This document shows positions 29,154 through 30,086 of a stretch of 37,798 nucleotides of DNA, piece after piece. The DNA comes from Prochlorococcaceae cyanobacterium ETNP18_MAG_14 (GTDB lineage Bacteria; Cyanobacteriota; Cyanobacteriia; PCC-6307; Cyanobiaceae). Position 1 is the first letter of the stretch, and each line of letters starts with the position of its first letter. The translations under genes were made by a program, and so were the position numbers. The notes beneath the pieces were generated by a model. That model searched no databases, was not told the origin of the DNA, and saw only the letters and a program-made list of their open reading frames with translations. The DNA lies in contig JASLWC010000009.1 in the NCBI GenBank assembly GCA_030741055.1, positions 1 through 37,798 of the forward strand, in the 5' to 3' direction.

Positions 29154-30086
29154 TTAACTATTGAGCAAACTGCCCGCCCAGTGCAACTTATGGGTGAGCG
29201 TTCGGTAGTAAGAGGGACTCTGTTCAAGGACCACCATCAATGCATGGTGACGCGCCCTCTGAACTACACAACCCTCTCCAGGCTCAAGCAAAGCCCCACT
29301 AGAACCATCTTTCCATAGCTTTACCCGGCGAGTGCTATCCCTTGGCAGGCCGATCACCAGCCGTGAAGCTGGAGGCACGATGACCGGACGACTGGAAAGG
29401 CTCATCGGGCAAATTGGACTAACGACTATGGCATCGATACCAGGATGAAGAATCGGCCCACCAGAAGCCATGGCATAGCCAGTTGACCCTGTTGGCGTAG
29501 CCAAAATCAAGCCATCACCGCGATAATGATCGACGACCTCACCATCGATTTCGAGTTCAAGAGTGCAGGTCGGCGATACCTCATCTCGATAGGGCCGCAA
29601 ATAAAAATCATTCAAAGCCCAGTGCGGCGACTGATTGCCATTGAGATCTTGTAGTGACGCGGTAGATCGAGTGGATCGCTTTGCATTGGAGCGTCTATCC
29701 ACAGCGGCCCGCAACATCATCCGACGCTCCAATGCAAAGCGATCCTGCGACAGTCGCTGCCAAAGCTTTTCGCCACTAAGCAAACGGCGATCATGGGTGA
29801 GAAAACCTAAATGCCCGCCGACGTTGAAGCTGAGGATAGGGACATCATGAACAGCAAGATGGCGAGCCGCACCAAGCACCGTGCCATCTCCACCAAGCAC
29901 AACAGCCAAATCAGGCAGCCCTGCTTCTGAAGCCAACAAATCCGGGAAAGGATTGGCGTTGACGCCACTCATGGCAACAACTACTTTCGCTCCCAGCGCT
30001 TGAAGCTCCTCCTCACAACGAGATGCTTCGCAATGCGCAGGCTGGCTTTCTGCCCGATAGATCACCCAGACCAGATCGAGACGCAT
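29154..30086 (-). CDS. nadK: NAD kinase
   Basis: '[17 protein letters not shown]', '[17 protein letters not shown]', '[48 protein letters not shown]'. Confidence 0.95.
29673..29745. repeat. Perfect 23-bp inverted repeat with 27-nt spacer inside nadK
   Basis: GGATCGCTTTGCATTGGAGCGTC (29673-29695) and its exact reverse complement GACGCTCCAATGCAAAGCGATCC (29723-29745). Confidence 0.95.

Follow-up and report, generated by a model that had tools for sequence, protein, structure and literature searches.

Ripley proposed that quasipalindromes are corrected through template switching, a model backed by E. coli genetics (as cited in PMC7202029). The mechanism is documented in the E. coli thyA and lacZ reporters (PMC7202029). 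In the evolution of yeast genes, a template switch has replaced as many as five adjacent amino acids (PMC8604942), and template switching can also create RNA hairpins (PMC8794818). Perfect inverted repeats in coding DNA are known as well from the mitochondria of Nematomorpha, where coding palindromes are numerous, reach 284 bp and have both arms encoding conserved residues (PMC6649704).

Here we describe an inverted repeat inside the nadK gene of a cyanobacterium, Prochlorococcaceae cyanobacterium ETNP18_MAG_14. The case is similar to the E. coli thyA hotspot and the lacZ quasipalindrome (QP) reporters in that it is internal to a gene and in that one arm would have templated the other, turning an imperfect repeat into a perfect one (PMC7202029). 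In contrast to the E. coli cases, which are mutations selected in the laboratory, it distinguishes species that have diverged in evolution, and its altered tract carries seven substitutions with the reading frame kept. As in the homogenisation of repeat arms in Saccharomyces cerevisiae, several nucleotides of one gene are changed in a cluster and adjacent amino acids are replaced, probably through one event (three replacements in nadK, up to five in yeast; PMC8604942); the yeast comparison is, however, among strains of one species, whereas the nadK case is cyanobacterial and the sister genome is ∼11% diverged. The coding palindromes of Nematomorpha are likewise perfect inverted repeats inside functional protein-coding genes (PMC6649704), but nadK presents one 23-bp case in which the left arm alone is conserved. 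We rejected a coding palindrome of the Nematomorpha type for this locus: the right arm lies in a variable loop and was changed in this lineage, hence the two arms are not both conserved. A limited literature search on template switching in Prochlorococcus and on cyanobacterial quasi-palindromes gave, judging by titles and abstracts, no earlier report of this case. Read as an arm correction, the nadK repeat is a new, clean instance; the mechanism itself has long been known.

The nadK gene and its inverted repeat

The window, i.e. the whole stretch of DNA that was analysed (37,798 nt), carries nadK on the minus strand (Table 1). The 310-aa ORF scores 457.9 bits against the NCBIfam equivalog NF002731, NAD(+) kinase (cut-off 312), and has hits to the two NAD_kinase domains of Pfam (PF01513 and PF20143). 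As judged by reading the ORFs, the genes upstream of nadK have products resembling NdhA, NdhI, NdhG and NdhE; downstream of nadK lies a CYTH-domain gene.

The two arms, 29673–29695 and 29723–29745, are complementary at 23 of 23 positions and are separated by a 27-nt spacer inside the intact gene; the perfect repeat that the earlier note had placed within nadK is present base for base. Its description of the left-arm product as family-like also holds, since DRFALERR is a segment conserved across the family. The right arm belongs to a segment, between MMLxAxVDRRS and HWALND, that varies in length and sequence among relatives and is mostly missing from solved NAD kinases in a phmmer alignment; judging from these alignments, the right arm probably sits in a tolerant loop of NadK. 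The sequence following RRSNAKRS had been called low-complexity in the same note. This description has to be dropped, as the segment is conserved in part and its alignment with the sister and the congeners is gap-free.

Table 1. Coordinates of nadK and of the parts of its inverted repeat
Feature	Position in window	Strand	Support or comparison
nadK, NAD(+) kinase, 310 aa, intact	29154..30086	-	NCBIfam NF002731, Pfam PF01513 and PF20143
Left (putative donor) arm, coding sense GGATCGCTTTGCATTGGAGCGTC, encodes DRFALERR	29723..29745	-	Conserved in relatives
27-nt spacer; MMLRAAV and its flanking codons	29696..29722	-	Aligned without indel in relatives
Right (putative recipient) arm GACGCTCCAATGCAAAGCGATCC, encodes RRSNAKRS in variable loop	29673..29695	-	
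8-bp inner core GACGCTCC, pairs with 29723–29730 already in sister; putative priming homology	29688..29695	-	Present in G001
15-nt tract, putative copy of left arm; seven differences from sister, all left-arm matches	29673..29687	-	
Synonymous Ala change in left arm, GCT to derived GCA (T to A in the coding sense)	29733	-	Own genome vs G001, G003 and MIT 0701

The remaining inverted pairs recovered from the window, with arms no shorter than 15 nt and a distance no greater than 300, are just 72–76% complementary. A wider scan covered 1.17 Mb of this genome, a total that does not count short contigs masked as N. At spacers of 3–100 the nadK repeat is the longest perfect inverted repeat in this sequence; the runner-up has 18 bp and lies outside an ORF, and the search for other long perfect inverted repeats within ORFs, which the earlier note had put forward as a check, gave 16 bp as the next longest. 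In five first-order Markov simulations of the same size the maximum was 12–14 bp. The genome exceeds the simulations in inverted repeats at every length, and the 23-bp repeat is still an outlier in both. With three mismatches tolerated, the arm sequence has no second locus in the genome, and an exact pattern scan for it across viral contigs gave no match.

Comparison with relatives

Five genomes of the genus were examined and four have a comparable nadK: our own, G001, G003 and G004, the latter apparently Prochlorococcus sp. MIT 0701. The sister, G001, is a marine MAG with 93% protein identity to our NadK and ∼11% divergence in the gene. A codon alignment was made of the four congeners and ten marine Synechococcus/cyanobacterial genomes, and the same 23 column pairs were scored in each. 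Arm complementarity is 23/23 in our genome, 15/23 in G001, 10/23 in G003, 9/23 in MIT 0701 and 8–13/23 in the ten others. The right arm is thus inverted-identical to the left in this lineage only, with 15/23 in the sister and 8–13/23 in the other 12 genomes. Among 102 distinct sequences of the homologous 150-nt region, the longest inverted repeat is 23 in our genome and 5–11 in the rest. A second genome with the perfect right arm was not found among these relatives, and on the sequences compared the perfect repeat is specific to this lineage. What the relatives have at the site is an imperfect inverted repeat, formed by conserved codons in the segments ERR and RS, and the sister already has a perfect 8-bp core, GGAGCGTC/GACGCTCC.

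Read in the coding sense, core first and tract second, G001 has GACGCTCC CCTGCTCAACGAGCT and our genome has GACGCTCC AATGCAAAGCGATCC; the eight bases of the core are common to the two and pair with the left-arm GGAGCGTC in both. Seven of the 15 tract sites differ from the sister, and at all seven our genome has the base complementary to the left arm. If bases were equally likely, the odds that seven of seven changes would all give the pairing base are 3^-7, about 5e-4. Divergence from G001 is 7/15 in the tract vs 10.7% in the rest of the gene (binomial tail 4.8e-4), and changes unique to our genome, counted where the other three congeners agree, occupy five of the 12 such columns in the tract vs 5.5% elsewhere (Fisher p = 4e-4), both values being descriptive since the tract was picked after the repeat was seen. 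Changes unique to G001 within the tract number zero. The alignment to G001 and G003 is gap-free over the region, and the flanks are co-linear and back to ordinary similarity. Four of the seven tract changes alter the first or second base of a codon; over the gene the third position holds 81 of the 105 differences. The effect on the protein is a change from P-A-Q-R-A to N-A-K-R-S, with three amino-acid replacements that are probably tolerated, because the changed arm is in a length-variable loop of NadK.

Probable origin by template switching

The perfect inverted repeat is very probably the scar of a template switch that corrected a quasipalindrome during DNA replication. Three features by which such an event is recognized are found at this locus: an imperfect repeat in the unaltered relative (G001, 15/23 with the perfect 8-bp core), clustered changes templated by the other arm (seven of the seven right-arm differences from the sister) and a return to the template with co-linear flanks and no other rearrangement (gap-free alignment to both G001 and G003).

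In the proposed sequence of steps, the coding-sense strand under synthesis would reach GACGCTCC and its 3′ end would fold back onto GGAGCGTC. The folded end would then copy ∼15 nt of the left arm outward, a length suggested by the product, and the nascent strand would go back to its normal template. Being in frame and within the length-variable loop, the product was probably tolerated and may have been fixed by drift. An intramolecular switch would be placed on the coding-sense nascent strand, because the changed arm is the later-made one in the coding direction; as an alternative, the switch may have been intermolecular.

Template-switch correction of an imperfect palindrome was the origin that the earlier note had suggested, and the seven right-arm differences, which all copy the left arm, bear it out. 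Copying of the right arm from the left remains very probable, but position 29733 calls for at least one further mutation. There, one mismatch was resolved oppositely, with the left-arm change of T to A matching an unchanged T in the right arm (29685), which complements it. Because the left arm has this derived change of its own, GCT to GCA, a single switch would not by itself account for every site; the change either predates the switch or is a second correction in the reverse direction. We infer the order of changes, since just four congeners have a comparable nadK and the sister is ∼11% diverged.

If the template switch is accepted, one replication error probably changed seven bases, and with them three adjacent amino acids, in a single step. 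Such a cluster, taken as independent mutations, could pass for positive selection or for fast evolution of a loop. A strong intragenic hairpin, too, can arise without selection.

Alternative explanations

Best placed among the alternatives, and still quite unlikely, is an artefact of library preparation, amplification or assembly, in which snap-back synthesis in vitro would have overwritten the right arm with a copy of the left. Whole-genome amplification generates inverted chimeras and is a known source of them; the assembly is a draft in 140 contigs with a completeness of 78.8%, and no other genome was found with this right arm. Chimeras, however, usually fuse distant segments and leave a break, whereas the flanks here are co-linear with those of relatives, there is neither gain nor loss of a base, and NadK remains in frame. 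Nor does the scanned genome abound in similar structures: palindromes and short hairpins aside, just three inverted matches within a contig reach 22 bp or more, all ∼90% identical and >1 kb apart.

We give even less credence to a hairpin under selection, acting as a regulatory or mRNA-stability element of the ndh-nadK-CYTH cluster. Folding of the mRNA did predict the strong hairpin that the earlier note had anticipated, with a stem of −50.7 kcal/mol (z = −6.1 vs shuffles), and after GC correction our region ranks second among the 102 homologous regions. Yet the strong stem is absent from all other relatives, the sister included, and the coding-sense RNA has no U-run after the stem. Stems inside genes are unfolded by translating ribosomes, and the same would happen to this one, located mid-gene. 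An intrinsic terminator was rejected separately, as the stem is followed in the coding sense by ACUCGAUCUA, without a U-run. The influence on translation or decay that the earlier note had proposed for the hairpin is thus far unsupported, and we assign no function to the hairpin; on sequence evidence neutrality seems the simplest reading.

An inserted mobile or dispersed palindromic element, like the Rickettsia palindromic elements, REP or MITE, would fit the palindromic structure within an ORF but is hardly credible: the length equals that of the sister and G003 with no insertion in the alignment, both the left arm and the spacer read as ordinary nadK, and the arms occur at a single locus in the genome at up to three mismatches, so that both the copies and the insertion at an empty site are missing and the candidate was rejected. 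No more credible are independent point mutations gathered by chance, even with a sister matching at 15/23 positions already and a fast-evolving loop, as seven clustered changes, each restoring pairing, would be needed and the simulated genomes reach at most 14 bp, in agreement with the note's statement that chance is very unlikely.

Other inverted repeats in the genome

One may extend the template-switch reading and suppose that coding quasipalindromes in this lineage are homogenised repeatedly and in both directions, so that picocyanobacterial proteins would change recurrently through inverted-arm conversion. We consider this extension speculative and rather doubtful. It draws on the seven mismatches resolved toward the left arm, the one resolved toward the right and a second coding repeat, in a tetrapyrrole methylase gene.

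At L205:2302-2370 (G000:C88) a 254-aa ORF contains a perfect inverted repeat of 16 bp, its arms 37 nt apart. A 53-aa piece of this ORF matches the Pfam family TP_methylase, and the ORF resembles precorrin-2 C20-methyltransferase; the repeat arms encode QGDAS and KKHHPD. In the sister, as in three congeners, the arms are imperfect, so this repeat may be a second, weaker case of arm correction. Another 16-bp inverted repeat, in L193, was rejected, as its alignment in relatives is not that of a coding repeat with a corrected arm.

Perfect palindromes without a spacer were seen as well. The one at L178:2874-2903, CTTGTTGTGCTGCTTAAGCAGCACAACAAG, is 30 bp long and lies in a 428-aa ORF that resembles IspG/GcpE by the motif RIGVNHGSL. 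Palindromes of 24–26 bp are located in ORFs of 151–413 aa at L212:3261-3286, L178:9677-9700, L187:12502-12525, L191:4492-4515 and L230:2987-3010; these are perhaps more than chance would give. Two more perfect 30-bp palindromes, L202:4722-4751 and L236:42-71, are outside ORFs of at least 80 aa; a T-run comes after the latter, which resembles an intrinsic terminator.
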